Below are positions 1 to 44,004 of a stretch of DNA of 44,004 nucleotides, in pieces. Position numbers and translations under genes: made by a program. This DNA is from a virus. Numbering within the stretch: the first letter of the stretch is position 1; each line of letters starts with the position of its first letter. The notes under the pieces are model-generated. The model had not been told where the DNA came from. It did not search any database and saw only the letters and a list, made by a program, of their open reading frames with translations. The stretch spans positions 1-44,004 of IMG/VR virus record IMGVR_UViG_3300044742_000159. One strand, 5' to 3'.

Positions 1-149
1 CTGAAGGAGCTGGCGATCGCGCTCGACATCCCGATCTGGGCCACCGAGAACCTCGCGGATCAGGCCGAAAAGTCGAGCCTGGATCATGTCCTGCGCGGCA
101 ACCCGCTGGTCGGCAAGTACCCGGAGCTGTGGAACGCGACCAGAATGGA
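1..149. repeat. Left copy of terminal overlap (circular junction)
   Basis: Bases 1-149 match 43856-44004. The first 126 bases are identical. Position 127 is C here and T at 43982, and the rest matches. The difference is silent, because CTG and TTG both encode Leu in the polymerase frame. The polymerase gene continues in frame across the joint with a unit length of 43,855 bp. This indicates a circular or circularly permuted genome, or an assembly overlap, rather than two separate loci. Confidence 0.93.
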
Positions 150-1653
150 GGATCACCCCAGGCATGCTGGCCAGCACGCTGCCGGTGTGGTGATCACGGC
201 CACCGACGTGTCCGACGTCGTGGCTGTCGATCGGCGCACCGGCGCCACCATGTGCGACAAGATCGATGCGGAAGCGCTCGGCCTGCTCAAGATCGATGCG
301 CTCGGCCTGACCCAGCTGTCGGTCTTCGAGGATGCCATGGAACTGGCAGGCCTCCCGCGCGATACATTGAATTCCATAGGCCTGGGCAACCAGAAGGCCC
401 TGCATATCCTGAACGCGCGCCGCTTTGCCGGCGTGTTCCAGTTCAACGGACCTGCGCTGCAGAACCTCTGCATGAAGACGACTGTCAATTCGTTCGACGA
501 CATCGTTGCGCTGACCGCACTGGCCCGTCCTGGCCCGCTCGACAGCGGCGAGGCAGCCCGCTGGATCGCCGTCAAGGTTGGCAAAGCGAAGCCTGCCAAC
601 CTTCACCCTTTGTTCGACCCGATCCTGAAGCCGACGCTCGGCATCATCATCTACCAGGAACAGGTCATGCAGATCTGTCGCGCCGTCGGCATGTCGTGGG
701 AGGAGGTGTCGACAATTCGCCGGCTGATATCGAAGTCTGCCGGCGTGATGGAAATGGAGAAATACTGGAACAGCTTCGACAAAGGCTGCAAGGCGCATGG
801 CATTCCTGATGGCGTCGCCCATGACTTGTGGCTGGTTCTGCGCGCCAGCGGCGCCTACTCGTTCAACAAGTCGCATGCCGTCGCATATTCCGTCATCTCG
901 TACTGGTGCTGCTGGCTGAAGGCGCACCACCCGCTGGAATTCGCGGCAGCGACCCTGACCCATGCGGGCGACGACATGCAGCTCAGGATGCTGCGCGAGC
1001 TGTCGAAGGAAGGCACGCGCCATGTCGCGGCCGACAAGGACAAGTCGATCGACAAGTGGACGGTGGCGACCATTGGCGATCGCAGGACACTGATCGGGCC
1101 TTTGCGCAACATCGTCGGCATTGGCCCGAAGCACGAGGCAGCCATCCTGTCGGCGCGCGCACGCCCGCGCGAGCGGTTGCCGGATAGTGTCGGAAAAATC
1201 CTGCACCGCATGAAGACGAGGCTGGATGATTTGTGGCCGATCAGGACCGCAATAGACGGTATGATGACGGACGCATTGAAACAAGATCTGGTATCGAAGC
1301 GGTGGGAGATTACCGACGTTCAGCCTAATGGGCAGGCATTTAACGTAATGGTGATCGGCAAGGTCGACTCCCTGACGAAAATCGACGAGAATACTCCCGA
1401 TCGTGTGCAGCGACGGAATGGTCGTCTGGCCGGCGGGCAATACGCTCTCAACCTCTGGATCAGCGACGACACCGACAAGATATTTGCCAAGATCCACTGG
1501 AGCCTGTTTTCCGAGCTGGGCGAGGAGATGCTCGGTCACGGCAAGGGCTACTACGCCATTCGTGGCACCGTTCCGCCCGACTTCCGCATGATCAACGTCG
1601 ATAAATTCCGTTTCATCGGGGCAGAACATGCAGAAGATCAGCCAGCTCACTGA
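1..1653 (+). CDS. dnaE: DNA polymerase III alpha subunit (DnaE-like), C-terminal part
   Basis: This is the 3' part of the replicative C-family DNA polymerase whose 5' part lies at 42695-44004. Joined at the overlap it encodes 937 aa, shorter than the roughly 1,160 aa of E. coli DnaE. There is no start codon because the window opens mid-gene; the frame is open from base 1. LLKIDALGL, with Asp486 of the joined protein (codon at 295), matches the third catalytic Asp motif of DnaE (LVKFDFLGL-like). The stretch GAYSFNKSHAVAYSVISYW is the conserved fingers motif. The last 110 or so residues resemble an OB-fold (for example NVMVIGKVDSL and YYAIRGTVP). The stop at 1651-1653 overlaps the next gene by 26 bp. 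I see no obvious clamp-binding motif. Confidence 0.93.
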   Translation: MKELAIALDIPIWATENLADQAEKSSLDHVLRGNPLVGKYPELWNATRMEDHPRHAGQHAAGVVITATDVSDVVAVDRRTGATMCDKIDAEALGLLKIDALGLTQLSVFEDAMELAGLPRDTLNSIGLGNQKALHILNARRFAGVFQFNGPALQNLCMKTTVNSFDDIVALTALARPGPLDSGEAARWIAVKVGKAKPANLHPLFDPILKPTLGIIIYQEQVMQICRAVGMSWEEVSTIRRLISKSAGVMEMEKYWNSFDKGCKAHGIPDGVAHDLWLVLRASGAYSFNKSHAVAYSVISYWCCWLKAHHPLEFAAATLTHAGDDMQLRMLRELSKEGTRHVAADKDKSIDKWTVATIGDRRTLIGPLRNIVGIGPKHEAAILSARARPRERLPDSVGKILHRMKTRLDDLWPIRTAIDGMMTDALKQDLVSKRWEITDVQPNGQAFNVMVIGKVDSLTKIDENTPDRVQRRNGRLAGGQYALNLWISDDTDKIFAKIHWSLFSELGEEMLGHGKGYYAIRGTVPPDFRMINVDKFRFIGAEHAEDQPAH

Positions 1654-3832
1654 CGTGCCGTCGATTGCCCTGTACCTGGGTCGCATCGGCGCAGTCCCGC
1701 GTTCCATCCGGGTCGCCATCATCGAGGAAAAGAAGGGCAAGTACTGGGAGGACAAGGCCTACATACGGTTCGACCCCAGGGCGCGCACGGTCGAGGCCTC
1801 GATCGATGAGCATGCCCCGACAGAGGAGGAGCTGGAAGCGATCATCAGGGACATGGGATCCTATCAATGGCCAGGATCAAAGCTGCTCGGCAAGACCTTC
1901 ACGCTGCCGCTGGAGCTGCAGGGCGAGAGCCCGGACAACATCTTCGAGTTCCGCAACAAGGCCGGCCAGCTGATCATGCTGCAGCAGCGGACCGAGAAGA
2001 CAGACCGCAGCAAGTACCGCCCCTGGACCTGCTTCGACGACGACGTCTGGCGCATGACGGAGCCGGACGGTCCGCTGCCGCTGTGGGGCATGGAGCACCT
2101 GCACGACCACACCACCGTCTTCATCCACGAGGGTGCCAAGGCAGCCCGCGCCGTGCACCGGATGCTGACGGACCGGACCGCCACGGCGTCGCATCCCTGG
2201 GGCATCGACATGTCCGGGGCCGCGCACCTGGGCTGGATCGGCGGCGCCCTCAATCCCGCCAGGACGGACTGGTCGCAGCTCGCCAAAAGCGGCGTCAAGC
2301 AGGCCTATATCGTTGCCGACAACGACGAACACGGCGTCAAGGCCGTGCCAAGGATCGCCCGGCAGCTGCAGGGCATCTCCGTCTTCAGCGTCGAGTTCAA
2401 CAAGCAGTTTCCCGACAGCTTCGATCTGGCGGATCCCTGGCCGGCGGATTTTTACAAGCAGAAGGGCGACGTCCGGCTCTATCGCGGTCCGGGCTTCGAG
2501 GATCACCTGCAGCCTGCCACCTGGGCGACCAGCGAGTTCACGCCACCCGGCGCCAGGAAGCCGATCATCGTGCTGCGCAACGAGTTCAAGCGCATGTGGG
2601 CCTGGGTCAAGGAGGTCGACCTCTACGTCTGCGTCGAGCGTCCGACCCTGCGCTACCCGAAGGACATCTTCGATGGCTACGCATCCGCCTTCAGTCATGG
2701 CGGCAAGCCCGTGTCCGCGATGCTCAAGGCGGAATGGGGTTCGCAGCTTTCCAAGCTGGCATACCGGCCGGACAGCGACGAACGCATCATCAGCCACAGC
2801 GGAGAGCTGCGCGCCATCAACGTCTATTCCCCGAGCAGGATCGGATCATCTGTCGGGGACGCTGCCCCGTGGCTGGAGTTCATGTGCTACCTGTTTCCGG
2901 ACCCGGCCGAGCGGCACGAGATGATGCGATGGTGCGCCACCCTGATCGCGCGCACCGACATCCGCATGGGCTACGCCGTCCTGCTGGTGACGGAAACGCA
3001 GGGGATCGGCAAGAACACCCTGGGGGAGAAGATCCTGGCCCCCCTGGTGGGCCGGCACAACTGTTCGTTTCCGAACGAGCGCGAGCTGGTCGAGAGCCAG
3101 TTCAACTCGTGGCTGGTCAACAAGCGCTTCGCCTTCATCGGGGAGATCTACACCGGCAGGTCCTGGAAGGCGGCCAACCTGCTCAAGTCATACATCACCG
3201 ATCGCGAGACGGCGGTGAACGAGAAGTTCATCCGCTCCTATACGACGGAGAACTGGATCCATATCATGGCCTGCAGCAATTCGCTGCGCGCCCTCAAGCT
3301 CGACAACACCGATCGCCGCTGGATGGTGCCGACATTGACGGAGACACCATGGCCGCACGCGCAGTGGGTCGCGTTCAACGACTGGATCGAGGGCACGGGC
3401 CTGAACATCATCAGGAGGTGGGCGGAGAATTTCGGGGACTACGTCAAGGTGGGGCAGCACGCGCCCATGACGGAGCGCAAGCGCGAGATGCAGCGCGAGA
3501 GCGAGAGCGAGGCCGTGCGGCTGCTGCGCGACTGGTGCGAGGCCCATATCGACGTGCCGATATCGGTGGCTGAGGAAGCCATCAAGATCATGCTGCAGAA
3601 CAGGGTCAAGCCGCTCTACGAGAGCAAGCTGGAGCTGCGCCGTGTCATGGAGCGCCTGGGCTGGGTCGAATTCCCGGAGCGCCTCACGATCGACAGCATG
3701 AAGCAGACCGTGATGATGTCACCCAGGGTCGCGGCCGAGCTGGCCAGTCACCAGCACGACGGCAATGAGCTGCGCAAATGGATCCGCACCACGATCCAGC
3801 TGCCGATCGACAGCGAGAGCAGGATGGTGTAA
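1628..3832 (+). CDS. Toprim-like primase / SF3 (D5-like, DUF5906-type) helicase
   Basis: A 734-aa protein, probably the phage primase-helicase that opens the fork and primes for the phage DnaE. A Toprim-like core is suggested by FIHEGAKAA (Glu168) followed by IVADNDEHG (Asp231/Asp233). The C-terminal half is a superfamily 3 helicase: Walker A TQGIGKNTLGEK (G459-K462-N-T464), Walker B-like FAFIGEI (Glu505), sensor ACSNS (Asn551) and DNTDRRWMVP with the arginine-finger pair 563-564. KNT in place of GKS/T is the usual D5/DUF5906 form. The ATG at 1628 lies inside the end of the polymerase gene (26-bp overlap), which suggests translational coupling. Assignment of the Toprim half is by motif spacing only; the helicase half is firm. 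Confidence 0.85.
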   Translation: MQKISQLTDVPSIALYLGRIGAVPRSIRVAIIEEKKGKYWEDKAYIRFDPRARTVEASIDEHAPTEEELEAIIRDMGSYQWPGSKLLGKTFTLPLELQGESPDNIFEFRNKAGQLIMLQQRTEKTDRSKYRPWTCFDDDVWRMTEPDGPLPLWGMEHLHDHTTVFIHEGAKAARAVHRMLTDRTATASHPWGIDMSGAAHLGWIGGALNPARTDWSQLAKSGVKQAYIVADNDEHGVKAVPRIARQLQGISVFSVEFNKQFPDSFDLADPWPADFYKQKGDVRLYRGPGFEDHLQPATWATSEFTPPGARKPIIVLRNEFKRMWAWVKEVDLYVCVERPTLRYPKDIFDGYASAFSHGGKPVSAMLKAEWGSQLSKLAYRPDSDERIISHSGELRAINVYSPSRIGSSVGDAAPWLEFMCYLFPDPAERHEMMRWCATLIARTDIRMGYAVLLVTETQGIGKNTLGEKILAPLVGRHNCSFPNERELVESQFNSWLVNKRFAFIGEIYTGRSWKAANLLKSYITDRETAVNEKFIRSYTTENWIHIMACSNSLRALKLDNTDRRWMVPTLTETPWPHAQWVAFNDWIEGTGLNIIRRWAENFGDYVKVGQHAPMTERKREMQRESESEAVRLLRDWCEAHIDVPISVAEEAIKIMLQNRVKPLYESKLELRRVMERLGWVEFPERLTIDSMKQTVMMSPRVAAELASHQHDGNELRKWIRTTIQLPIDSESRMV

Positions 3833-3842
3833 AGGGCTTTCC

Positions 3843-5546
3843 ATGATCGAGATCGACATTGGCGAGAAGCGAACGACGCTGCGCGGCGACGACCTTGAGG
3901 ACAGCAGGGCTCGGCTCGTCGAGATGGAAGGCCCGCGCAGCTGGCATCGGAATTATCACGACATCCGGGAATTCACCTTCGAAACGACCCCGCACAATCT
4001 ACGCATCATACGCAATGCATTTCCAGAACTCGCACTCGGCCTGCCGCAGCCCGACCAGCAGCCTGCCTCGCGAGAGGGCATCGTTCCGGCCTTCCGCATG
4101 GTACCGCGCGACTACCAGCTCGACTGCCTTGAGCGCTTCCGCGATGCACCTGTCTTTGCGCTCTTTTCCGATCCCGGAACTGGCAAGACGAAGACTATGC
4201 TCGACATCATCTCGTGGCGTTGGCATGCCGGCCTCGTGACGGGTGTGCTGGTGTTCTCGTCCCCGAAGGGCGTTCATGCGCAATGGGTCGAGGAGCAGAT
4301 CCCGCTGCACATGTGGGAAAACGTGCCATCAAGGGCTGCCTTCTGGAACGGCCGCAAGCCTCCGGAGTGGCTCGGGCACCAGACGACAGCGGAGCTGCAG
4401 ATATTCTCCAGCAACATCGACGCGCTCAACAGCGACAAGGCCTACGCCGTCCTTGAAAAATTCTGCCACGTCCACAAGGGCAGGCTCATGATCGTTGTCG
4501 ACGAAAGCGACAGCATCAAGACCTGGGGGGCGAAGCGCTCGAAGCGACTGCGACAGCTCGCCTTCAATGCGCAGTGCAAGCAGCGCGCGATCATGACCGG
4601 GACGCCAATCGCGAAGGATCTTACGGACGAGTGGTCCCAGTTCTATTTTCTCAATCCTGACATCATCGGCCACAAGTACAAGACCTCGTTCCTGGCGCAG
4701 TTCTGCATCATGGGCGGCTTCGAGAACCGCAACGTCGTCGGGCACCGCAACCTCGACCTGTTCAAGCAGCTTACCGCGCCCTTCATCTTCCGCGCAACAA
4801 AAGAGCAGCTCCACCTTCCGGACAAGATCCACGACACCGTCGTGTTCGACCTGACGGCCGAGCAGCTGCGCCTGATCAGGGAGCTGAAGGACACCTTCAT
4901 CGCGGTGGTCGACAGCACGAAGGACCAGCGCGTACTGGCCAGCCACGCCGCGACCGCGATCCTGCGCATGCAGCAGATCGCGTGCGGGTTCGCGCGGGTC
5001 GAGGATCTGCGCAACGGCTACGATGCCATCGCACCCGAAGGCACGATCATCAGGCTTTCCAACCCGCGCATGGACGCACTGCTGGAGCTGATCGGGCAGC
5101 TCGACGGCCGCAAGGTGATCGTCTGGTGCCGCTTCCAGCACGACGTCGAGCAGGTCCATCTGCACCTGGACAGGATCGCGCCCGCCAGGAAGTTCTTCGG
5201 CCCCATGGGGGATGCCGAGCGCAGCATCAGCAAGAACAGGTTCATCAACGATCCCGCCACCCGCTTCCTGGTGGCGACACCCGACAGCGCCGGGCGCGGC
5301 ATGGACGGCTTGCAAAAGGGCTGCTCGCACGCCATCTACTATTCCAACTCGTTCAACGCCATCGCACGCTGGCAGAGCGAGGACCGCATTCACCGGATAG
5401 GGCAGCGCGAAACCGCGAGCTATTTCGACCTGATTGCGCGCGGATCGCCCGACCGGGCAATCCTGAAGAACCTGCGCGCGAAGAAGGACCTGTCTGCGCT
5501 CGTCCTGGACGACCTGCGCAGGATCATCGAGGGAGAAGACCAATGA
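3843..5546 (+). CDS. SNF2-family DNA helicase/ATPase
   Basis: 567 aa from ATG 3843, ten bases after the previous stop; the open frame extends upstream to 3765 but that part overlaps the primase gene. Helicase motifs are complete: motif I SDPGTGKTKT (Lys115), motif II VVDESD (220-223), motif III MTGTP (251-255), then in the C-terminal lobe VIVWCRFQHD, SAGRGMDGL and motif VI WQSEDRIHRIGQ. The IHRIGQ sequence is diagnostic of SNF2/Rad54-like translocases. Such proteins move on double-stranded DNA, and phage versions are found in replication/recombination modules. Residues 1-85 are a phage-specific N-terminal extension without a recognised domain. The gene ends by overlapping the next start (ATGA). 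Confidence 0.92.
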   Translation: MIEIDIGEKRTTLRGDDLEDSRARLVEMEGPRSWHRNYHDIREFTFETTPHNLRIIRNAFPELALGLPQPDQQPASREGIVPAFRMVPRDYQLDCLERFRDAPVFALFSDPGTGKTKTMLDIISWRWHAGLVTGVLVFSSPKGVHAQWVEEQIPLHMWENVPSRAAFWNGRKPPEWLGHQTTAELQIFSSNIDALNSDKAYAVLEKFCHVHKGRLMIVVDESDSIKTWGAKRSKRLRQLAFNAQCKQRAIMTGTPIAKDLTDEWSQFYFLNPDIIGHKYKTSFLAQFCIMGGFENRNVVGHRNLDLFKQLTAPFIFRATKEQLHLPDKIHDTVVFDLTAEQLRLIRELKDTFIAVVDSTKDQRVLASHAATAILRMQQIACGFARVEDLRNGYDAIAPEGTIIRLSNPRMDALLELIGQLDGRKVIVWCRFQHDVEQVHLHLDRIAPARKFFGPMGDAERSISKNRFINDPATRFLVATPDSAGRGMDGLQKGCSHAIYYSNSFNAIARWQSEDRIHRIGQRETASYFDLIARGSPDRAILKNLRAKKDLSALVLDDLRRIIEGEDQ

Positions 5547-14393: not shown

Positions 14394-14888
14394 TTATGCA
14401 GCCTCGTCGGCCCTGGCCGTGATGTGATGACCGAACCTCTGGCAGAACTTGTTTGCCAGCCAATCCTCGACAGTCAGCAGGGCCAGCACGCCGTCGTCGT
14501 TCCGGCCACCGGCGCGCGGGATGCGGATGAGCATGAACCCCATCGCGGCCAGCATCCGCTGCACGTGCATGCTGCGCGCCATCGTTTTGGTGATCAGCAT
14601 CTGGCAATTGCAGTGGATGAACGGATACTGGAACATCACGGCCAGGGTCGTGCGCGTCAGCCAGTTCTGCCTCGGCAGGGCCTCCGCACTCATCTCGATC
14701 GTGCCAGCCTCCGGATTGTAGTTGAAGTAGACGATGCCCGCGATCAGCTCGTTGTCCTGGTTGATGATGCCGATCGCACGCAGGTTGCGATCGGTGAAGC
14801 CGGCGCGCTGGGTGAAACCGGACGCGATCTTTGATCGCGCAACGAAGTCCGCCACCAGCTGGTCCTGGTCATACACGTAGCGCAGCAT
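14394..14888 (-). CDS. GNAT-fold acetyltransferase-like virion-module protein
   Basis: 164 aa from ATG 14888, whose last-base overlap with the upstream stop gives TGATG; a GTG one codon earlier is possible. The pattern resembles the GNAT fold: DRNLRAIGIINQDNELIAGI, then VYFNYN, then EMSAEAL strand, and HCNCQMLITKTMARSMHVQR like the acetyl-CoA-binding arm followed by a helix. Sequences like this sit among tail or ejection genes in several short-tailed phages, where they may be structural rather than catalytic. The family is inferred from pattern only. Confidence 0.65.
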   Translation of the reverse strand: MLRYVYDQDQLVADFVARSKIASGFTQRAGFTDRNLRAIGIINQDNELIAGIVYFNYNPEAGTIEMSAEALPRQNWLTRTTLAVMFQYPFIHCNCQMLITKTMARSMHVQRMLAAMGFMLIRIPRAGGRNDDGVLALLTVEDWLANKFCQRFGHHITARADEAA

Positions 14889-15940
14889 CACCCGACGCCT
14901 CCGCTGGCTCCGTCAGATCCGCTGTCGTTGCCGCTTCCGGTTCCGGCGCCTGCGCCAGCCCCGGCACCATCGCCGGCCCCGGCGTCAGTGCCGCCAAAGC
15001 CGCCAACAGCGCCGCCGCCGCTGAACGAACCGGCGCCGACATCGAAGCCTCCGCCAGGTGCGCCTGCCGTGAAGCCGGCGGCGCCTTGCGTGTTGCCCAT
15101 GTCGGCGGATCCGGAATAGCCGGCTCCAAAGCCGCCCGTGTTGCCGGATCCGCTGGTGAAGCCGCCGAAATCGCCTTGCCCAAAGTCGGTGCCGCCAGGG
15201 GCCGGAGATCCCAGATCGTAGCCTGGAGAAACGAAGTCGGGGGCATCCACGGGTGCGCCCGGGGTGCGCCCTGGAGATGCCAGGGGTGCGCGCCCTGTCG
15301 GAAGCGCTGGAGCCGTTACGACCTGCTCCGGAAGAACGGTGTTCGGGGTCACCGTGATCGCAAGTGGCGTGCCTGTCGGCATGCCTCCCCAGCGATCGGC
15401 AAAGGTGCTTGACGGAGTAACAGGCGCATCAGCCGGGGGTCCCGGAAAATCAGTAATCCCGCCCCATCGATCAGCAAAGCTTCCAGACGTCATGGGGGCT
15501 CCAGGGGTGTTTGCTGCCGTGAATGCCGATCCTCCGACAAAGCCTGGACCTATATCATTAAGACCTGCCTGATCCCCCAAATCAGTGTCAAAGCCCTCTC
15601 CAGGGGGCGCCCCACCCATCGGGGTGCGGCCTCCGGAATCCGTCACCATCGAGGCGTTCGATGTCGTCATGTCGGCAAGGGACATGCCAGCCATGGAAGC
15701 AGCCATGGAAGCGCGATCGCTGCCTGTATCATCCGGATTGCTGTTGGCCGGCGGTGCGCCAGTCCCGAACTGATCATTCGCGCCTGTTGGGGTTCCACCC
15801 AGCAAATCTGCCATCGACTGCGAGCTTTGGCTCGCGCCACGATCTGCTCCGGCACTGATCCCCTGCATCGCCAGGATCGCAGCCAGATCCTCGCGCGAGA
15901 CTGGCGCTGTCGGGGAAACTTCCGGATACATCATTGCCAT
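14888..15940 (-). CDS. Gly/Pro/Thr-rich low-complexity virion protein
   Basis: 350 aa. Apart from a helical N-terminus (MAMMYPEVSPTAPVSREDLA then AILAMQG) the whole chain is low complexity, dominated by Gly, Ala, Pro, Thr and Asp. It includes two near copies of SFADRWGGI/TFADRWGGM (around residues 133 and 160) and a C-terminal run of GAGAG type. It is likely flexible and surface-exposed or packed in the virion. No family is recognised. The start codon has the ribosome site AGGGACAAG upstream. Confidence 0.7.
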   Translation of the reverse strand: MAMMYPEVSPTAPVSREDLAAILAMQGISAGADRGASQSSQSMADLLGGTPTGANDQFGTGAPPANSNPDDTGSDRASMAASMAGMSLADMTTSNASMVTDSGGRTPMGGAPPGEGFDTDLGDQAGLNDIGPGFVGGSAFTAANTPGAPMTSGSFADRWGGITDFPGPPADAPVTPSSTFADRWGGMPTGTPLAITVTPNTVLPEQVVTAPALPTGRAPLASPGRTPGAPVDAPDFVSPGYDLGSPAPGGTDFGQGDFGGFTSGSGNTGGFGAGYSGSADMGNTQGAAGFTAGAPGGGFDVGAGSFSGGGAVGGFGGTDAGAGDGAGAGAGAGTGSGNDSGSDGASGGVG

Positions 15941-24553: not shown

Positions 24554-25243
24554 TTAGAGCTTCCGCCTGACGGTGAAGTTGTCGAGCTTCACGACCTTGG
24601 TGGAGCAGAACAGCCCCACGATCTGGGAGGACGCAGCAGTCGTGATCGTGCCCGTGAAATGACCGGGCACGTTGGAACCAGCGACGACTGCCGTCGTCCC
24701 CCCGACACCAACCGTGATCGGTGTGGTGCCGGCGTGCTGCGTGATGTCGAATTCGTAGAGGTACTGGCCAGCCGTGATTGTCTCGGCGGCAGTCTGGATG
24801 GCCTGCGCTGCGCCCGTGCCATCGAAGTTCAGCGTGCCGCCACTGATCGAGGCCCCGCCAGACAGCGTCCAGCCGGGTGCAGTCACGAAGGTGCCGTTGG
24901 TCACCAGCTCGTTGCCGCCCAGGTTGGTGCCGCTCGGGTGGCTGGTGTTGGGGGCTTCGGTGTAGGTGCCGCCCACGCTGTGCCCGGTGACCCTGCCCGT
25001 CGTCGTCGAGATCTCGGTGCCGTCAGCCTCCGCCAGCCCGGACAGCTCCGGCGCGGCGGCGCCGTTCAGCGGATCCGCCAGGAGCCATGCGTTGAGCGCA
25101 TCAGGATCCGTGATCGCTGCCGGCGCGAGCCCGCGCGGCGTCGGTGGCGTGCCCTGATAGGTCACGACACTGTTGGTGGGCGGCGTCGGGTTCGCCAGCG
25201 TCACCGTCATGGTGCGGTCGAGATTGGTGGTGGGGGCTGCCAT
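24554..25243 (-). CDS. Head-decoration-like protein B with CBM-like C-terminus
   Basis: 229 aa from ATG 25243 (TGATG with the upstream stop); the frame stays open further upstream but would run inside the large polyvalent gene. The N-terminal domain, TVTLANPTPPTNSVVTYQGT and onward to TEAPNTSHPS, is shared with the downstream neighbour. The C-terminal half (ELVTNGTFVTAPGWTLSGGA, then TAGQYLYEFDITQH and KVVKLDNFTVRRKL) looks like a carbohydrate-binding beta sandwich. Such domains let capsid fibres stick to surfaces. Confidence 0.75.
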   Translation of the reverse strand: MAAPTTNLDRTMTVTLANPTPPTNSVVTYQGTPPTPRGLAPAAITDPDALNAWLLADPLNGAAAPELSGLAEADGTEISTTTGRVTGHSVGGTYTEAPNTSHPSGTNLGGNELVTNGTFVTAPGWTLSGGASISGGTLNFDGTGAAQAIQTAAETITAGQYLYEFDITQHAGTTPITVGVGGTTAVVAGSNVPGHFTGTITTAASSQIVGLFCSTKVVKLDNFTVRRKL

Positions 25244-28155
25244 CAGCGTGCCTCGTATCTGCTTGGGTCGACGAGGGAGCCTAGACCGGCGGCGCCGGCC
25301 CCGCCCGCCGTCAATAGACCGACTGCGTGCTGGTCGCCACGCAGGACTTGGTCGCGCAGCACCTTCGGGTCGATGCCCAGTTCCCTGGCGCGTTCCCAGA
25401 TGCGCTGCGACAACAGCTCCAGCTTGCCTGCGCCGATCGGGGTGTCGACACCGGTCGCGCGCGACATCGTTCCCCACTGCAGCGCCTGCGCCGGGACGGC
25501 TTCGATGCCAATCGGCTCCGCGATCTTCTCGCGATACCACGGCGCCATGGAGCGATACTCCGCGCCCTTCATCGCGACACCCGGCTTGGCGGTGTCGCGC
25601 ACGTCGGCGGCGCCGACGCCGCGCGCGAAGTGCGCGTCCGGGACAGGCCAGCGCGTCTGGAAGCCGGTTTCCGGCACCCCCGAAGCGGCGTGATAGGTCG
25701 GGATCTTGACGACTTCCTTGCCGTAGCCGTGCTTTCCGGTCTGCAGCCAGCGCACCACCGGGTCGGACTGGATGGCGTGGTAGGCGTGACCGCCGACGGC
25801 GCTCATGTCAGCCGGGAAGCCGGGAGGAAGATTTTGGCGATCGGCGCCAGCGAAGCGGTGGAAGGTGTCGTAGTCGCCGCGCTTGGCGTACATGTTGGCG
25901 GCGGTGCCGCGATTTAGCTCCGTCATCACGTCGGATGACGCTGAGAACGGCGCCGTCGTCGCGTTGAAGCGCTGGTAGTCCTTGATTGCCTGTTCCTTCC
26001 CGACCAGCTTCACCATGTGCTGGAACATCGGGTCCATGACGTACCAAGGGACCATGCCTTCGCGCAGGCCGCGATGCTTCAGTCCCTCGGCCAGCGTGTC
26101 GAGGATGCGCTGCTCGTTCTGCGGTGTCGCCAACCCCTCGGCCACGTAGGACTCGCCGGGCTTCTTCGGCGCGTGGATCTCCGGCTCCATGTTGCCCTTG
26201 CGACGGCCCTGCTGGCTGATGTCGTAAAGGTCGGCGCGCGTTACGCCAAACAGCTCCTTCAAGGCAGGGTGCTCGGCGGCGACGTTCTCGGCGGCTTTCT
26301 CCGCGACAACGCGCGGGTTCTCATACACGCCGGGACTGAAGACGCGGCGCGGATCCAGCACCGTCGGCTTGACCGGGAGCCACGCGGGCTCCTTCATGGT
26401 CTTGCCCGGAGGACGCAACAGCGGGCTCGGACGGACGGAAGCCTGCATCTCGCGCGGCGTCGGATTGAGGACGCTGCCGAACTGGAATTGCAGATCCGGG
26501 TTAGGTCCAGTCAGGACATTGAACTCGACCTTCTGCTTGTCCAGTGGCGTCTTCATCATGCTGGCAGGATAAATGCCGGCAGCCTGCATTGCCGTCAGAT
26601 CCTTGCGATCGATGACGAGGTTTGCCAGCCCCTCTCCGGCACCCTTGCGATAGGCCGTCTCGGCAGCAAAAATCCGGGCCTGTCTTTGAAAATCTTCCCG
26701 ATCCTTCTGGGCATTTTTCAGGTAGTTATTGTAATCTGCGCTGGATTTAACGACGCCTTGCTTGTCGTAATAGCTCTTGTACTGCATCGGAGTCAGGATC
26801 GTCGGGGCCTGCTGCATCTGCTTGTTGTAGATTTCATTTGCAGCGGTTCCTTTCACCAGGGCCGTCTGCGGAGCCGGATTGGTGCCGCGCGCGAACCCCT
26901 CGATCTGCTGGATGGCGTGCTGCACCTCGTGCAAGAGCGTGTCGAATGTCTGGCCGCGCGCCATCTTGTTTGTCGATCCTTCCTCGCGATAAACGATCGA
27001 GGCCGGCCGATCCTTGGTGCGCGGAAGGTAGCCGCCCGACGCCTGCATGAAGGCGTCATGCGAAACCGGCATGTTGCGCAGCTCGGGATAGGCCTCGAAC
27101 AACGCAGGATGGTGCCAGACATCCTTGAGGAAGATCGGAGCCTTGCCCTGGACCTTGAGCAGGGCATCCTGCTTGGCGATCTGGCTGCGCAGCGTGTTCT
27201 CTGGAGAACCATACTTGCCGGCTCTTTGCGGGTTCTGCTGGTCGAAGATCTTCGACGCCATGCTGTCGATGTCGCCCTTGTAGTAGGCGCCAAGATCCGA
27301 AATCTCGTGCATCCACTGCTTGTCGGCGCCGCGCATGTATCCGGTTTCGCTCCAGATCCGGTTTGCCGGCAGACCGTTGGCCTCCATGGTTTCGGCCAGC
27401 TTCATCTTCATCGGATCGAAAGTCCTGGCGAGCCTGCCGCCGAACATGCCGGCACTGGCGCCAGGGCGCGCGGCAGCAGTGACAAGGCCAGGACCGGCGA
27501 TATTCATGCCGGCGTCAGCCGCAGCCTTCACTTGCTGCTGGCGAGCCATGTCGACGTCCTGCCAGGATGAACCGGGGTTGCTCTCGACGTTGGCGGCCTG
27601 GAAAAAGCGGCTCGGGATCTTGAGCACGTCCTCGGCCATGTCGACGACACCGCCAGCCGCGCGCAGGCCAAGCGGAGGATCCTTCGGCACGTCGTAGCGG
27701 TCCGGGCGGACGCCGGCCATGGGATTGACCGGCGCGAAGGATCCGCGCTGCGGTCCCGGAGCTGCAAGCGGAGGGGCGCCCATGGGGGATCGATTGGGCG
27801 CGGCCGGCGGTGCCGGCGGCGCGTTCCACCAGTCCCTGGCGCCCTCCACCAGGGCTCCAAGCCCCCTGCCAAGCCCCCCAAGCTGCTGCTCCGTGCGCGG
27901 GAGCCACGGCAGCGCACGCCGGGGCGGGGCAGGGGTCTGATCCGGTTCGAACAGCCGTCCCGGCCTCCCGGTTTCGGCATCGGGAGCGCCCCACGGCCGC
28001 CCTTCGGCAAGGTCGTTCGGTGGGGCGGCAAACCCTGCCGGGCGGACCGTGAGGCGCAAGGGGTCCGGAGCCTCCGGATAAAGATCGGCGGCTGTGCGCG
28101 GATCCGGGATCTGGTTGGCCATGTCAGCCAGGGTCAGCTCGTCCCGGTCAGCCAT
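25243..28155 (-). CDS. Large polyvalent protein with HEVQH zincin motif
   Basis: 970 aa, the largest late product. The first 170 residues are Pro/Gly-rich. Around residue 250-290 is the polyvalent-protein pattern MKMKLAETMEANGLPANRIW then SETGYMRGADKQWMHEISD. At 347-420 come VWHHPALFEAYPELRNMPVS, GGYLPRTKD and FDTLLHEVQHAIQQIEGFA, with H409-E410-x-x-H413, a zinc metallopeptidase motif of the type seen in large polyvalent phage proteins. The remaining 500 residues are charged helical sequence without a recognised catalytic site. Such proteins are thought to be packaged and injected with DNA. Confidence 0.83.
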   Translation of the reverse strand: MADRDELTLADMANQIPDPRTAADLYPEAPDPLRLTVRPAGFAAPPNDLAEGRPWGAPDAETGRPGRLFEPDQTPAPPRRALPWLPRTEQQLGGLGRGLGALVEGARDWWNAPPAPPAAPNRSPMGAPPLAAPGPQRGSFAPVNPMAGVRPDRYDVPKDPPLGLRAAGGVVDMAEDVLKIPSRFFQAANVESNPGSSWQDVDMARQQQVKAAADAGMNIAGPGLVTAAARPGASAGMFGGRLARTFDPMKMKLAETMEANGLPANRIWSETGYMRGADKQWMHEISDLGAYYKGDIDSMASKIFDQQNPQRAGKYGSPENTLRSQIAKQDALLKVQGKAPIFLKDVWHHPALFEAYPELRNMPVSHDAFMQASGGYLPRTKDRPASIVYREEGSTNKMARGQTFDTLLHEVQHAIQQIEGFARGTNPAPQTALVKGTAANEIYNKQMQQAPTILTPMQYKSYYDKQGVVKSSADYNNYLKNAQKDREDFQRQARIFAAETAYRKGAGEGLANLVIDRKDLTAMQAAGIYPASMMKTPLDKQKVEFNVLTGPNPDLQFQFGSVLNPTPREMQASVRPSPLLRPPGKTMKEPAWLPVKPTVLDPRRVFSPGVYENPRVVAEKAAENVAAEHPALKELFGVTRADLYDISQQGRRKGNMEPEIHAPKKPGESYVAEGLATPQNEQRILDTLAEGLKHRGLREGMVPWYVMDPMFQHMVKLVGKEQAIKDYQRFNATTAPFSASSDVMTELNRGTAANMYAKRGDYDTFHRFAGADRQNLPPGFPADMSAVGGHAYHAIQSDPVVRWLQTGKHGYGKEVVKIPTYHAASGVPETGFQTRWPVPDAHFARGVGAADVRDTAKPGVAMKGAEYRSMAPWYREKIAEPIGIEAVPAQALQWGTMSRATGVDTPIGAGKLELLSQRIWERARELGIDPKVLRDQVLRGDQHAVGLLTAGGAGAAGLGSLVDPSRYEAR

Positions 28156-29167
28156 AATCGAACCCCGTTCTCGGATCGACCAGGGATGCCAGGGCGTCGC
28201 GCTGCTCGATGACGTCGCCTTCCATCATGCCGGGGCCGGTCATGGGGCGCGATCGCGGCTGCGGAACCCCGCCAGGGAAGCGGGGCGGCTCGGGGGCTCC
28301 GGGAGGCGCCGTGGCCACGGGATTGTGGGATGTCATGTCGACTGCGGGCGGCTGCCCGGCGACGGTTGCGGCCAATGCGCCGCGATCGACCGGCGGAGCT
28401 GCTGTCGGAGCGGCAGGCGCCTGCTGGGGGAAGCTGGAGTTCCGGTCAAACATGGCACCGAGCCGCTGCAGGCCGGTCATGGGAGCCTGCTCCCCAGGTC
28501 GCTGCCTTGGCGTGATCATGGCTGCGCCAAGGTCGCCAAGACTGGAGATGCCTCCTCTCAGGCCGCGCTGGCTGCTGCGGTTGCGGTCGTTGCGGTCGTC
28601 GTAATACTGCTGCTGCAGCTGCTGCTGCGTTTCACGTGAAACAGCCGGCTGCGCCCCGGGTGGTGTGGCTGAGGGGCCCGGAGCGGCAGCCGGCGCCTGC
28701 GGCGCGGAAGGCTGTGCGCCGAAGACATTCTGGTCGTTTCCGGGTTGCCCGAAGAAATTGCGGGCATGCATGGCGCGCTCGGGTCCGGACTTGTCTCCGT
28801 AGCGGATCACGGGCTTGAGGGCGGCGGACGCCTCGTCGACGTTCCGGGCGGCCAGGAAGCCCTGCGCGTTCCGGTTCTCGGTGGTGCGCATCTCGTGCGC
28901 GATGAAATCGGCCTGGGTGGCGGGGTCCGTCCACGGGACCTTCCTTGCGGCTGCGAACTGCTGCAGTGCGGTGAAGCGGTCGCCGCGCCACTGCATCAGG
29001 CCATAGGCTTGTTCGTCCTTGTTCACGCTGTTGGAGGCGAGCCCGCTCTCGCGCTGCAGGTTGCCCATGATGGCTGCCGCCTGCGCGCGCGAGTAGCCGT
29101 TCTTCATCAGCCGGTCCATCAGCATGGACGGATCGGCAGCCATCGGTGTCCCGCCGTGGTAGGGCAT
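28148..29167 (-). CDS. Peptidoglycan lysozyme (Phage_lysozyme2-like)
   Basis: 339 aa. The N-terminal 120 residues fit the phage tail lysozyme family: SRAQAAAIMGNLQRESGLAS with the catalytic Glu40, then EQAYGLMQWRGDRFTALQQF, DPATQADFIAHEMRTTENRN, and a closing helix SGPERAMHARNFFG. The remaining 210 residues are Pro/Gly-rich, probably disordered and attaching the enzyme to the virion. It is the only clear cell-wall hydrolase in the window, so it may serve both entry and release, but no export signal is visible. ATG 29167 sits one base after the upstream stop, with GGAAGGCG as the ribosome site. Confidence 0.85.
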   Translation of the reverse strand: MPYHGGTPMAADPSMLMDRLMKNGYSRAQAAAIMGNLQRESGLASNSVNKDEQAYGLMQWRGDRFTALQQFAAARKVPWTDPATQADFIAHEMRTTENRNAQGFLAARNVDEASAALKPVIRYGDKSGPERAMHARNFFGQPGNDQNVFGAQPSAPQAPAAAPGPSATPPGAQPAVSRETQQQLQQQYYDDRNDRNRSSQRGLRGGISSLGDLGAAMITPRQRPGEQAPMTGLQRLGAMFDRNSSFPQQAPAAPTAAPPVDRGALAATVAGQPPAVDMTSHNPVATAPPGAPEPPRFPGGVPQPRSRPMTGPGMMEGDVIEQRDALASLVDPRTGFDYG

Positions 29168-36038: not shown

Positions 36039-37568
36039 TCACCCCAGGAACGTCAGGGTGCGCATGGCGCGGGTGAAGGCCACGTAGGCCAGGTTGCTTT
36101 CCTGGCGCTGCTGCCAGGGCTGGCGGGCTGCCTTGCTGGGGCAGCGGGCGTGATGCTCGACCAGGAAGACATCGCCCCACTCGCGGCCCTTGGCGCGGTG
36201 GTAGGTCGCCAGCGTCACGCAGGCCTTCGGGTCGACGTCGTCCCCGAACAGGTCCCCGATGAAGCCGATCACGCTGTCGACCGTGTGCTGGCCACGGCTC
36301 TGCACGGCCGTGCAGATCTCGACCAGGGTGTCGACCTTGTCTGCCACCTGCTCCGCCCTGGCGTCCGAACCCTTGGCCACGGCCTTCTGCATCTCGGTAA
36401 CCCGGTAGTCTTCGAGGCGCGGCAGCAGGTCCTCGATCAGCTCGACCTTCCAGCGGCGGGCGAGCTTCGCGAGGCCAATGCCGATGTCGCGGCCCTCGAC
36501 CTTGGCGGCGATGCCCCGGCGGATCAGCGAGTAGGCCGCCGCGATCAGCGGCGCCGTGTTGCGGCACAGGATCGCCTGCCCCGGAACGAACGCGATGCGG
36601 CCAAGCTCCGCGATGTCGACCTTCGACACTTCTCCGTCGCGCGCGTCGTCGGCGGCTTCCAGGTCGGGGACGATCTGTTGCGCCAGGGCAACCACCGCCT
36701 TCGGGCAGCGGAAGGTGACGGTCAGGGGCAGGATCACGCTGTCGAGCGCCTCGATCATGTTTTCGAGCGCCTGGGCGTCCGCGCCGCTGAAGCCGTAGAT
36801 CGCCTGCCTGTCGTCGCCAACGATATGCAGCTGGCCGCCCGGGGTCAGGAACTTGCGCACCAGGGCCTGCCGGGCGCGCGAGATGTCCTGTGCCTCGTCG
36901 AGGAAGATCACGTCCTTGGTGAACTTGACGCGCAGGTTTTTCACCAGCGGAAACAGCACCATGTCGTCGAAGTCCACGACGTCGGTCTGCGCGAGCGACA
37001 GCTTGTAGAGGTGCTGCGCGGCGGCGATGACGGCTTCGACGGCGTCCGTCTCGTTCAGGCCGTTGATGTCGTAGTGCTCCGCGATGCGCGCCCAGGTGTC
37101 GACCGATCCGATCGGCTGGTCGTCGAAAAAGCCGACGCCTTCCTGCTTGGCCTTGGACACCAGCTCCAGCACCTGCGATCCGTACTGGCGCAGCGTGCCC
37201 TTGTGATCCTGGGGGCCTTCCCTGTCGAGGATGGCGTAGGCCAGATCGCGCACCTTGTTCTTTTCGATCTTCGGGTTGCGGAATGCGAACCGGACGAGGC
37301 CCCAGCCCATGGCGTGTGCCGTCTGGGCGCCGGTGACCTTCCAGTCGGTGTGGCCGTTGCGCTTCAGCCTGGCGGAGATCTCCACCTCGATGGCCTTGTT
37401 GTAGGCGCACACCGCGACGGTCAGGGTCGAGCTGCTGGCGCGCAGGGCATCGACGGCCGCGAGAATGGTCGAGGTCTTGCCGCTGCCGGCGCGCGCGATC
37501 AGGGCGACGTTGCGCTCCTGGCGGACGACGGTGTCGACGAAGGCGGTCTGCTGGGCGGTGAGGTTCAT
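36039..37568 (-). CDS. UvrD/Rep-like SF1 DNA helicase
   Basis: 509 aa. Motif I ALIARAGSGKTSTI (Lys31), motif II VIFLDEAQD (224-228), motif III HIVGDDRQAIYGFSG (249-262), TFRCP (motif IV region), then TYHRAKGREWGDVFLV and VAFTRAMRTLTFLG at the C-terminus (motifs V-VI). All are diagnostic of the UvrD/PcrA/Rep family, though the protein is shorter than bacterial members (around 700 aa) and ends at motif VI with no C-terminal extension. It probably assists replication or recombination. Ribosome site GGAGCCC is upstream of ATG 37568. Confidence 0.92.
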   Translation of the reverse strand: MNLTAQQTAFVDTVVRQERNVALIARAGSGKTSTILAAVDALRASSSTLTVAVCAYNKAIEVEISARLKRNGHTDWKVTGAQTAHAMGWGLVRFAFRNPKIEKNKVRDLAYAILDREGPQDHKGTLRQYGSQVLELVSKAKQEGVGFFDDQPIGSVDTWARIAEHYDINGLNETDAVEAVIAAAQHLYKLSLAQTDVVDFDDMVLFPLVKNLRVKFTKDVIFLDEAQDISRARQALVRKFLTPGGQLHIVGDDRQAIYGFSGADAQALENMIEALDSVILPLTVTFRCPKAVVALAQQIVPDLEAADDARDGEVSKVDIAELGRIAFVPGQAILCRNTAPLIAAAYSLIRRGIAAKVEGRDIGIGLAKLARRWKVELIEDLLPRLEDYRVTEMQKAVAKGSDARAEQVADKVDTLVEICTAVQSRGQHTVDSVIGFIGDLFGDDVDPKACVTLATYHRAKGREWGDVFLVEHHARCPSKAARQPWQQRQESNLAYVAFTRAMRTLTFLG

Positions 37569-40583: not shown

Positions 40584-41411
40584 ATGGCCAAGAAGATCGT
40601 GCCCGCGACTGCCGGCACCAGCACCCCCGTACTCTCATCCAACAATATCGAAAGCCTCATGCGCCAGCATGCGGGCGCGGGCCACGAGAACATCACGGCC
40701 GACGACCTGCTGATCCCGCGCCTGACCATCCTGCAGGGGCTCTCGCCCCAGGTTGCGCAGGGCAGGCCGGAATACGACCCGGATGCGCGCGTCGGGCAGA
40801 TCTACGACGTCGGCATGCGCGAGGGATGGCCGGCCATCAGCATCGTCGTTGCCCACTACACCAGGGTCTGGAACGAATGGCTGCCGCCGACTGTCGGCAA
40901 GGGCATTGCGCGCCAGCACACCACCAATGCGATCATGAGCAATGCGCGCCCCGGCCAGGACGGCAAGCCGACCCTGCAGAACGGCAACACGATCGCAGAA
41001 ACGGCCGAGTTTTATGTGCTCAACCTGACGGCGGGTGGACGCAAATCATTCATCCCCATGGCGTCGACGCAGCTGAAGGAAGCCAAGCGCCTCACCACCT
41101 ACATGGTCAACGAGGAGGCGACCGGCCAGGACGGCAGGATCTACAAGCCGCCGTTCTTCTATCGCACCTACGGGCTGTCGGCCGTTCCGACGTCCAATGC
41201 CAAGGGCACATGGATGCTGTGGAAGATCGAGCGCGGCCCCCTGCTGTCCGAGCTGCCCGACGCAGAGAAGCTGTTCTCCGACGTTCTCGGCTTCCGCGAG
41301 GCGATTGCCGGCGGCAAGGTGCGCGGCGACATGAGCGAAGGCGACAGCGAGCCGAACCTGCCCTGGAACGACGACCCGCCGCGCCAGCGTCGCAACGAGG
41401 GTCCGCTGTGA
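40584..41411 (+). CDS. Conserved phage replication-module protein
   Basis: 275 aa from ATG 40584 with GGAGGGAAA upstream; the open frame begins at 40497, but that part overlaps the promoter region. Conserved patterns include DDLLIPRLTILQGLSPQVAQ, IVVAHYTRVWNEWLPP, NGNTIAETAEFYVLNLTAGG, SFIPMASTQLKEAKRLTTYM and FYRTYGLSAVPTSNAKGTWM. These recur in proteins found in replication modules of short-tailed phages. A single-strand DNA-binding or recombination role is often supposed but cannot be proved from the sequence. The C-terminal tail is acidic/Pro-rich, as SSB tails are. Confidence 0.75.
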   Translation: MAKKIVPATAGTSTPVLSSNNIESLMRQHAGAGHENITADDLLIPRLTILQGLSPQVAQGRPEYDPDARVGQIYDVGMREGWPAISIVVAHYTRVWNEWLPPTVGKGIARQHTTNAIMSNARPGQDGKPTLQNGNTIAETAEFYVLNLTAGGRKSFIPMASTQLKEAKRLTTYMVNEEATGQDGRIYKPPFFYRTYGLSAVPTSNAKGTWMLWKIERGPLLSELPDAEKLFSDVLGFREAIAGGKVRGDMSEGDSEPNLPWNDDPPRQRRNEGPL

Positions 41412-41980
41412 TGGGCGACGACCTCAACGAGCGCATCCTCTCGGCGCCGCAGGTGGCGGCGCCGGCCACCCTGCAGGAGATCTCCCGGATCGCGACCTCC
41501 GCCGTCCACCTGGAGAACATGATCCGGATGGGCGAGGAGGAGCTGGACAGGATGCGCACGCAGCTCAACGCCATGCGCTTCGACCAGCTGCCGAGCCTGA
41601 TGCTGGAGGCCGGCCTTGCCAGCCTCGGGCTGACGGACGGATCGACGGTGTCGGTCGAGGACTACATCCAGGGATCCCTGCCAAAGGATCCGGTGCAGCG
41701 GGCGGCCGGCATCATCGTCCTGGAGCAGTCCGGCGGAGAGGCGCTGATCCGCAACCAGGTGGTCGCGCAATTCGAGAAGCGCGAGCACAACAAGGCCCTT
41801 GCGGTGGCCCAGGAGCTGCAGGCCCGTGGCCTGCAGGTCAGGGTCGAGCAGGACGTCCACCACTCCACCCTGAAGGCCTTCGTGCGCGAGAAGCTCAGGC
41901 GCGGCGAGCAGATCGCATACGAGAAGCTCGGCATCTTTGTCGGGCGCAGGGCCACCATCAAGCCGGCGGGGGAAACATGA
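41411..41980 (+). CDS. Conserved phage replication-module protein 2
   Basis: 189 aa, with the ATG at 41411 sharing a base with the previous stop (TGATG). Typical patterns are HLENMIRMGEEELDRMRTQL, LPSLMLEAGLASLGLTDGST, VSVEDYIQGSLPKDPVQRA and HHSTLKAFVREKLRRGEQIA then FGVFVG-like GIFVGRRATIK. The pattern is one that recurs in phage replication neighbourhoods. A helical N-terminus is followed by an alpha/beta core; function is unknown. Confidence 0.78.
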   Translation: MGDDLNERILSAPQVAAPATLQEISRIATSAVHLENMIRMGEEELDRMRTQLNAMRFDQLPSLMLEAGLASLGLTDGSTVSVEDYIQGSLPKDPVQRAAGIIVLEQSGGEALIRNQVVAQFEKREHNKALAVAQELQARGLQVRVEQDVHHSTLKAFVREKLRRGEQIAYEKLGIFVGRRATIKPAGET

Positions 41981-42168
41981 TCAAGGGCAGGATCAAGGAA
42001 AGGCTGAAGGCCAGACAGGAAAGAACGCAGGTCCTCATGGGCGTTCCGAACGACGCCTACGAGCTGATCTGCAGGCAGGCCCTTGCCAGCCATCGCACCG
42101 TGCGCGGCCAGTGCGTGTTCTACCTGCTCAAGGGCATGGAAGCGGAAAAAGACCGGGAAGAAAAATGA
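41977..42168 (+). CDS. Small basic protein, possible ribbon-helix-helix
   Basis: 63 aa with ATGA overlap at both ends. The first 16 residues are very basic (MIKGRIKERLKARQER). QVLMGVPNDAYELICRQALA then SHRTVRGQCVFYLLKGME has the strand-helix-helix length of an Arc/MetJ-type DNA binder. It sits between a conserved replication protein and DnaQ, so it may be a regulator. Confidence 0.6.
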   Translation: MIKGRIKERLKARQERTQVLMGVPNDAYELICRQALASHRTVRGQCVFYLLKGMEAEKDREEK

Positions 42169-42698
42169 AGCATCTGATCTTCGACACCGAGACGACGGGC
42201 CTGCCCAGAAGCTCGATCGTGCCGATCGAGAAGCAGCCGCGCGTGATCGAGTTCGCCGCAATCCTGTGGGACGACGACCTGAACGACGAGCAGGAATTTT
42301 CCTGGTTTTTCAATCCGGGGATCCCGATCCCGGCGGAAGCCAGCAAGGTTTCCAACATCACCGACGACATGGTCAAGGACGCTCCGCCGTTCTCCCGGGT
42401 GGCGCCCGCCATCCGGGCCCTGCTGGTCCTGGCCGACGTCGTCGTGGCCCACAACCTGTTCTTCGACCTGCACATGGTGTCGAACGAGTTCAGGCGGGCG
42501 GACACCGCCGACGTGAAGTGGCCGAAGGGGATCTGCACCGTCGAGGCCACCGAGCATATCCAGGGCCACAGGCTCAAGCTCGCGAGCCTGCACCGGCTGC
42601 TGTTCAACGAGGACTTCGAGGGCGCCCACCGCGCCATGACGGACGTGAAGGCGCTGCTGCGCTGCTACAGGGAGCTGATCAGGAGGGAGCTGATATGA
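42165..42698 (+). CDS. dnaQ: DnaQ-like 3'-5' exonuclease (DEDDh)
   Basis: 177 aa from ATG 42165 (ATGA overlap). The five DEDDh residues are visible: IFDTET (Asp7, Glu9), AHNLFFDL (Asp101), HRAMTD (His155, Asp160). It probably proofreads for the phage DnaE, whose ATG at 42695 overlaps this stop (ATGA), the same pairing as bacterial epsilon and alpha. It is shorter than bacterial epsilon and has no clear clamp-binding tail. Confidence 0.92.
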   Translation: MKHLIFDTETTGLPRSSIVPIEKQPRVIEFAAILWDDDLNDEQEFSWFFNPGIPIPAEASKVSNITDDMVKDAPPFSRVAPAIRALLVLADVVVAHNLFFDLHMVSNEFRRADTADVKWPKGICTVEATEHIQGHRLKLASLHRLLFNEDFEGAHRAMTDVKALLRCYRELIRRELI

Positions 42699-44004
42699 GC
42701 GCCCGCATCCGCACCGGCTACTCGTTCCGCCATGCCGCCGGCAAGATCGACGACGTGATCCACGTCCTGCAGCATCACCGATACGATCAGGCCCCGATCA
42801 CCGACACCGCGAGCACCTACGGCTGGGTCAAGTGGGATGCGGCGGCCAGGAAGGCCGGCATGGATCCGGTCTTCGGTGTCGAGCTGGCGGTATCGGAGGA
42901 TCCGGGCGCCAAGAAGCCCAACGTCGACTACTGGACCTTCCTGGCCCGTGATAGCGTCGTGCCGTTGCACGGTCTCATTGGCGTGGCGACCGGGCAATTC
43001 CGCTATGAACCACTGCTGACCATCGATCAGGCTGTCGGTGCAGCGTCTGCCGTCAACGTCATCATGGGACATCGCGCCCCGGCCGGGAGCCTCCAACCCC
43101 GGCCGGGGCTGTGGTTCGGGCTCGGCCCCGGCGTCGCACGCCCGCAGCTGAAGCTGGCCCTTGAGGCCGGGCACGCGCCCATTGCGGTCTGCAACAACAG
43201 GTTTCCGAACGCGCGCGATCGCGGGCTCTACGAGCTGGTGTGCGGCCGGCGCGCGCAGTCCCAGTCCTACGCCCAGCATGTCATGGGGCCGGAGGAATGG
43301 ATGGCGTTTGCCAGGGACTTCGACCTGGATCTGAACCTGCCCTACGAGGCCATGGAGGCCCGCAACGTTGTTCTGATCCAGTCGACCGCACAGCTGCCGC
43401 GCGCCACCATGCTCAAGCCGGAGCGGATCCTGACGCTGGACCTCATGTGCGAGCTGGGCGCAAATACGCTCGGGGTCGATCTGAACAATCCGATCTATCA
43501 GGAGCGGCTCGATCGCGAGCTGAAGCTGATCGAGGCCAAGGGCTTCGAGGACTACTTCCATCTGGTGGCGGATCTGGTCGGCTGGGCGCGCGAGCGCATG
43601 CTGGTGGGGCCGGCGCGCGGCTCATCCTGCGGCTCGCTTGTTTGCTATCTGCTCGGCATCACGACGGTCGACCCGATCCCCTACGGGCTGCTGTTCGAAC
43701 GCTTCATCGACGTCAACCGTCCGGACCTGCCGGACATCGACATCGATTTTTCCGATCAGCATCGCGATCTGATCTTCGACTACCTGCGCCGGAAGCACGG
43801 GGCCGGCAGGGTCGCGCGGCTCGGCACCGTCAACATGTACCAGCCGCGCTCGGCCCTGAAGGAGCTGGCGATCGCGCTCGACATCCCGATCTGGGCCACC
43901 GAGAACCTCGCGGATCAGGCCGAAAAGTCGAGCCTGGATCATGTCCTGCGCGGCAACCCGCTGGTCGGCAAGTACCCGGAGTTGTGGAACGCGACCAGAA
44001 TGGA
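42695..44004 (+). CDS. dnaE: DNA polymerase III alpha subunit (DnaE-like), N-terminal part
   Basis: Starts at ATG 42695 (ATGA overlap with dnaQ) and is open to the window end; it continues at base 1-1653 (937 aa in total). The N-terminal region keeps the shape of a PHP domain (MSARIRTGYSFRHAAGKIDD, then MDPVFGVELAVS), but the usual HxHSxYS and DHG metal ligands are replaced (RTGYS; DTA), so it is probably inactive. The polymerase palm follows: MLVGPARGSSCGSLVCYLLG and DLPDIDIDFSDQH with the catalytic Asp347/Asp349 (P346-F352). Confidence 0.92.
   Translation, partial: MSARIRTGYSFRHAAGKIDDVIHVLQHHRYDQAPITDTASTYGWVKWDAAARKAGMDPVFGVELAVSEDPGAKKPNVDYWTFLARDSVVPLHGLIGVATGQFRYEPLLTIDQAVGAASAVNVIMGHRAPAGSLQPRPGLWFGLGPGVARPQLKLALEAGHAPIAVCNNRFPNARDRGLYELVCGRRAQSQSYAQHVMGPEEWMAFARDFDLDLNLPYEAMEARNVVLIQSTAQLPRATMLKPERILTLDLMCELGANTLGVDLNNPIYQERLDRELKLIEAKGFEDYFHLVADLVGWARERMLVGPARGSSCGSLVCYLLGITTVDPIPYGLLFERFIDVNRPDLPDIDIDFSDQHRDLIFDYLRRKHGAGRVARLGTVNMYQPRSALKELAIALDIPIWATENLADQAEKSSLDHVLRGNPLVGKYPELWNATRM
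43856..44004. repeat. Right copy of terminal overlap
   Basis: Repeats bases 1-149 with one mismatch (T at 43982 in place of C at 127), a silent change in the polymerase. Removing one copy gives a unit of 43,855 bp in which the polymerase gene is intact. Confidence 0.93.

Follow-up and report, generated by a model that had tools for sequence, protein, structure and literature searches.

The DNA analysed here, referred to as the window, is a stretch of 44,004 nt that corresponds to a complete or almost complete phage genome, with ends that repeat over 149 bp (Table 1) and with portal, terminase, major head and tail fibre genes on the minus strand. When positions 42695-43855 and 1-1653 are joined across the repeat, they encode an uninterrupted DnaE-type protein of 937 aa, the approximate length given by the initial annotation. 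The join can be considered sound because a related contig of 43,965 bp (L003) carries the same polymerase uninterrupted, aligned over residues 1-928 with 75% identity. Across this join runs a string of plus-strand genes that overlap serially, from a gp34-like and a gp33-like gene through a 63-aa ORF, an exonuclease and the DnaE to a primase-helicase, whose gene begins before that of the polymerase has ended, and a SNF2-type helicase, whose gene overlaps that of the primase-helicase in the same way. The coordinates agree with the ATGA overlap, the DnaQ-like gene immediately upstream of DnaE and the phage's own primase-helicase described initially. A family search gave no match for the 63-aa ORF, and a single relative was detected for the gp34-like protein.

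Some features outside this string are also worth recording. A third helicase, UvrD/Dda-like, is encoded on the opposite strand from the replication genes (36039-37568, minus). The 970-aa product of 25243-28155, which has an LPD23 "large polyvalent protein" domain, lies beside a tail-lysozyme protein (28148-29167), both of them possibly ejected proteins, and an acyl-CoA N-acyltransferase (PHROG 4470; 14394-14891, minus) is found amid the structural genes.

Table 1. Terminal repeat and replication genes of the window
Feature	Position	Strand	Evidence or remark
Terminal repeat, copy 1	1..149	.	1 mismatch against copy 2, at 127/43982
DnaE, C-terminal part: remaining palm, thumb, fingers, helix-hairpin-helix, OB fold (predicted)	1..1653	+	Sequence; fold of the L003 protein
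Primase-helicase (DUF5906 / VapE-like ATPase)	1628..3832	+	Pfam DUF5906 6e-19; PHROG 1156 DNA primase 6e-22
SNF2-type helicase	3765..5546	+	Pfam SNF2-rel_dom 1e-17; PHROG 62 DNA helicase
Pam3 gp34-like protein, function unknown; first gene of the module	40584..41411	+	Pfam PF23977 3e-38
Pam3 gp33-like protein (DUF7307)	41411..41980	+	Pfam PF23984 7e-16
63-aa ORF	41977..42168	+	Stop overlaps exonuclease start, ATGA at 42165
DEDDh 3'-5' exonuclease, 177 aa	42165..42698	+	Pfam RNase_T 1e-23; PHROG 192 "DNA polymerase exonuclease subunit" 6e-42
ATGA overlap: exonuclease stop TGA (42696-42698), DnaE start ATG (42695-42697)	42695..42698	+	Sequence
DnaE, N-terminal part: degenerate PHP and first palm half	42695..44004	+	Unique up to 43855
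Terminal repeat, copy 2	43856..44004	.	Genome closes or is terminally redundant here

A DnaE-type polymerase with a degenerate PHP domain

The polymerase is matched by the Pfam models of the PHP (2e-7), DNA_pol3_alpha (7e-49) and finger (7e-35) domains and, at the sequence level, it also matches DnaEs of solved structure, namely those of Taq, M. tuberculosis and E. coli. The palm catalytic motifs are kept, as originally proposed, with intact aspartates at positions 347, 349 and 486 (E. coli 401, 403 and 555), a triad that is invariant in the 91 phage proteins compared, including that of the window. The L003 protein (76% identical to that of the window) was folded from a 54-sequence alignment (pLDDT 91.4, pTM 0.87), and the model is a complete DnaE with a PHP barrel, whose best solved matches are the Taq, Mtb and E. 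coli enzymes (E about 1e-51 to 1e-42) and whose terminal strands look like an OB fold, after which the chain stops. From its predicted architecture, the window protein fits a C-family DNA polymerase of the DnaE form, with PHP, palm/thumb/fingers, (HhH)2 and then OB. The C-terminal (tau-binding) domain beyond the OB fold is absent, and the protein ends after the OB strands. In three related phage loci, in-frame intein-like insertions with HNH-like endonuclease motifs occur within the DnaE fingers motif FNK/SHAVAY (L067:4435-7503, L106:4390-8130 and L111:4914-9071, the last of them apparently with two such insertions); the window DnaE has the empty site, FNKSHAVAY, at this position.

As for the PHP domain, its metal ligands were ordered and numbered after PMC3666897 and PMC4731781, with an E. 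coli mapping that agrees with Table 1 of PMC3666897. The ligand set of active domains, H H D H E H C D H, reads R4 R6 H13 T38 E63 Y79 H126 N167 R169 in the window, which is not a metal-binding (active) PHP site. Only E63 is kept, that is, one of the nine ligands, compared with four in E. coli and nine in PHP-active DnaEs, and the initial claim that the N-terminal metal motifs are lost is borne out by this alignment. All 90 members of the phage clade described below keep between none and three of the ligands, and 33 of 40 bacterial DnaEs keep the nine. A degenerate PHP domain is nothing strange in itself, since E. coli DnaE retains just four ligands, and in both proteins the first and the ninth ligand are replaced by arginine (R10 and R203 in E. 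coli). Two former ligand positions, 14 and 73 (originally H14 and E73), show either arginine or lysine paired with glutamate (62 of the 90 clade members) or alanine or isoleucine paired with arginine (13 members), and arginine or lysine at 14 was never found together with arginine at 73 among the 90. This pattern would fit a charge pair in the place of the metal, by analogy with that described for E. coli R10 and R203 (PMC3666897), and the two states may correspond to one change on the tree. The PHP domain of the window probably has no nuclease activity.

The upstream exonuclease

The 177-aa protein encoded upstream keeps all five DEDDh residues, with D/E/D/H/D aligned to positions 12, 14, 103, 162 and 167 of E. 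coli epsilon, and it ends where the nuclease domain ends, so that the E. coli tail with its clamp motif and its alpha-binding part is missing. The same holds for its relatives, 89 of which usually extend for 4-15 residues past the nuclease domain, with the epsilon tail missing in nearly all. The definition of epsilon (PMC3666897) includes a tail at the C-terminus for binding to the alpha PHP domain, and by this definition the window protein, judged on its predicted domains, is a DEDDh exonuclease and not a bona fide epsilon. The original designation as DnaQ, or epsilon, is consequently correct at the level of the nuclease domain (DEDDh, RNase_T), but not for the alpha-binding tail. No natural fusion of the exonuclease to DnaE was found among the ORFs searched. 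One candidate, a feature of Caulobacter phage CcrSC (L024, 4995-5582) whose annotation as "DNA polymerase III alpha subunit" appears to be a mistake, was rejected, the feature being the exonuclease itself.

Distribution among phages

A tblastn search of 50,697 phage records detected DnaE relatives in over 1,200 of them and the exonuclease in 443. In a tree of 91 phage-type DnaEs, 40 bacterial DnaEs and E. coli, built without the DnaE2 group, 90 of the 91 sampled phage-type proteins form one clade (support 1.0), and only that of phage GBK1 falls outside. Upstream room of 700 bp or more was available at 91 phage-type loci, and 89 of these carry a same-strand DEDDh gene upstream of DnaE, either touching or overlapping it (38 loci), within 300 bp (71 loci) or, in all 89 cases, within 1.6 kb. 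The two loci without this gene are L111 and GBK1, the latter with a PHP site of nine out of nine ligands. Since the relatives were picked by their similarity to the group of the window, these counts describe that clade and not phages as a whole. The clade has diverged to about 33% identity, yet the position of the exonuclease just upstream is near-universal, and the window shows the same module, with a DEDDh gene (PHROG 192) on the same strand upstream of a degenerate-PHP DnaE (PHROG 405). At some loci the exonuclease and the polymerase are separated by other genes, as in L033:2601-3997, with a 197-aa ORF at 3410-4003 among them, and similar spacer ORFs are present in L003, L012, L030, L047, L074 and L096.

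The closest known systems are those of Pbunavirus BrSP1, Luteibacter phage Pluto, Pseudomonas phage tabernarius, Cronobacter phage Ss1 and Vibrio phage VA-RY-3, where the pair (PHROG 192 + PHROG 405) is adjacent or overlapping, in the same order and strand as in the window. They share with it the short DEDDh nuclease, a PHP domain reduced to 0-2 of the nine ligands, intact palm aspartates (those aligned) and the lack of a clamp motif after the HhH, whereas the polymerases are only about 32-37% identical to that of the window and the neighbouring genes are not the same: Pluto and Pbunavirus have a polynucleotide kinase there, Ss1 and VA-RY-3 a thymidylate synthase and a ligase. The pair had been regarded as unusual for a 44-kb phage, but the genomes of Ss1 and VA-RY-3 measure 42.2 and 40.3 kb, and, together with the more than 1,200 records with a DnaE homologue, they indicate that the arrangement is common and has already been annotated in many phages, some of about 40 kb. 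No paper describing the exonuclease/DnaE pair of phages was found in a literature search.

On the other hand, seven phages of Gram-positive hosts (GBK1, Fowlmouth, Finch, Yaboi, BpsS-36, Tonenili and P1201) encode a DnaE with the same polymerase core as the window but with all nine PHP ligands and no adjacent DEDDh gene; GBK1 is the one of the seven that was placed in the tree. In two of them, the actinophages Fowlmouth (L189, 6875-10065) and P1201 (L194, 4495-7855), DnaE is split over two consecutive genes. Five of the seven records contain no RNase_T-family gene, and the other two, GBK1 and BpsS-36, have a distal DEDDh gene in addition to the intact PHP site, which means that the trade-off between PHP site and exonuclease is not absolute. 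In bacteria, loss of the PHP site correlates with the presence of a separate exonuclease (PMC3666897, PMC12926913), and the same trade-off is visible in the phage sequences at the level of the clade. However, the loss in phages looks like one event in one clade, and for this reason the association has no independent replicates among them.

Probable mode of replication by the phage pair

Taken together, these data make it very probable that the polymerase is the phage's own C-family replicase, with its PHP metal site lost and with proofreading most likely provided in trans by the upstream DEDDh exonuclease. The polymerase would copy DNA primed by the phage primase-helicase, the PHP domain without its metal site would survive as a scaffold, and the exonuclease would proofread for the polymerase of the window by removing misincorporated ends. 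Its upstream position and the ATGA overlap would lead to matched expression of both proteins, the translation of which may be coupled. The resulting pair resembles the Pol III core of E. coli (alpha DnaE and epsilon DnaQ) in its C-family polymerase, its inactive PHP domain and its separate DEDDh exonuclease. It differs in that the genes are adjacent, one ligand is left instead of four, there is no epsilon tail, no beta-clamp motif and no C-terminal alpha domain, and alpha is 937 instead of 1160 aa long. The initial proposal that proofreading has moved to the exonuclease fits the association seen in 89 of the 91 loci and the intact-PHP phage DnaEs without the adjacent gene, but this amounts to one evolutionary split without replicate losses. 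The absence of the epsilon tail and the intervening genes found in some loci also count against the preferred explanation.

A different and unlikely role for the exonuclease would be mainly in host DNA turnover, recombination or primer/end processing, with a polymerase that has little or no proofreading or that uses the host epsilon. Besides the lack of an alpha-binding tail and of a clamp motif, this possibility is favoured by relatives of the exonuclease without a DnaE beside them, namely the one next to a T7-like DNA polymerase in CcrSC and the one in Flavobacterium phage Fpv5, without DnaE nearby, because of which the nuclease cannot be considered tied to the DnaE-type polymerase. Such a role is, however, difficult to reconcile with the near-universal position of the gene just upstream of a polymerase as divergent as that of this clade, and with the lack of such a neighbour in phages whose DnaE has an intact PHP site. 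Lastly, it is highly improbable that the polymerase is a translesion (DnaE2-like) enzyme and not the phage replicase: a degenerate PHP domain and a weak clamp contact are typical of DnaE2, the window protein has a degenerate PHP and no QxxLF, and some relatives are annotated as dnaE2, but the gene belongs to a string with a primase-helicase and a helicase, it gave the sole DNA polymerase match in the scanned genes of the window, neither an ImuA nor an ImuB gene was noticed, and DnaE2 is not known to have a DnaQ partner (PMC12926913).

A last question concerns processivity in the replication carried out by the phage polymerase and exonuclease. A strict QxxLF-like beta-clamp motif after the HhH was absent in 90 of the 91 phage proteins, including that of the window, and present in 31 of the 40 bacterial ones, in a pattern search that can miss divergent motifs. 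Given this possible miss, and given that the phage DnaEs that keep all nine PHP ligands did not show the motif either, its absence is a lead and not a result. A canonical beta-clamp motif is also absent from the exonuclease, and no phage-encoded sliding clamp was found with the Pfam model of domain 3, so that the description of the pair as self-contained was too strong. The lack of a canonical motif in both proteins, of a tau-binding domain and of a phage clamp raises the speculative and rather doubtful idea that the whole clade, with its degenerate-PHP DnaE and tail-less exonuclease, may replicate without the host sliding clamp. If this were true, it would be a C-family replicase with processivity and exonuclease recruitment based on contacts not known from Pol III.

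The clade offers a compact setting in which to study the recruitment of an exonuclease without the epsilon tail and the retention on DNA of a DnaE in which the usual clamp motif is lacking. What is usefully added here is the contrast, resting on one evolutionary split, between phages with a dead PHP site and a neighbouring exonuclease and those with an intact site and no such neighbour, by which the bacterial rule that a lost PHP site goes with a separate exonuclease extends to phages at clade level, with both genes adjacent.
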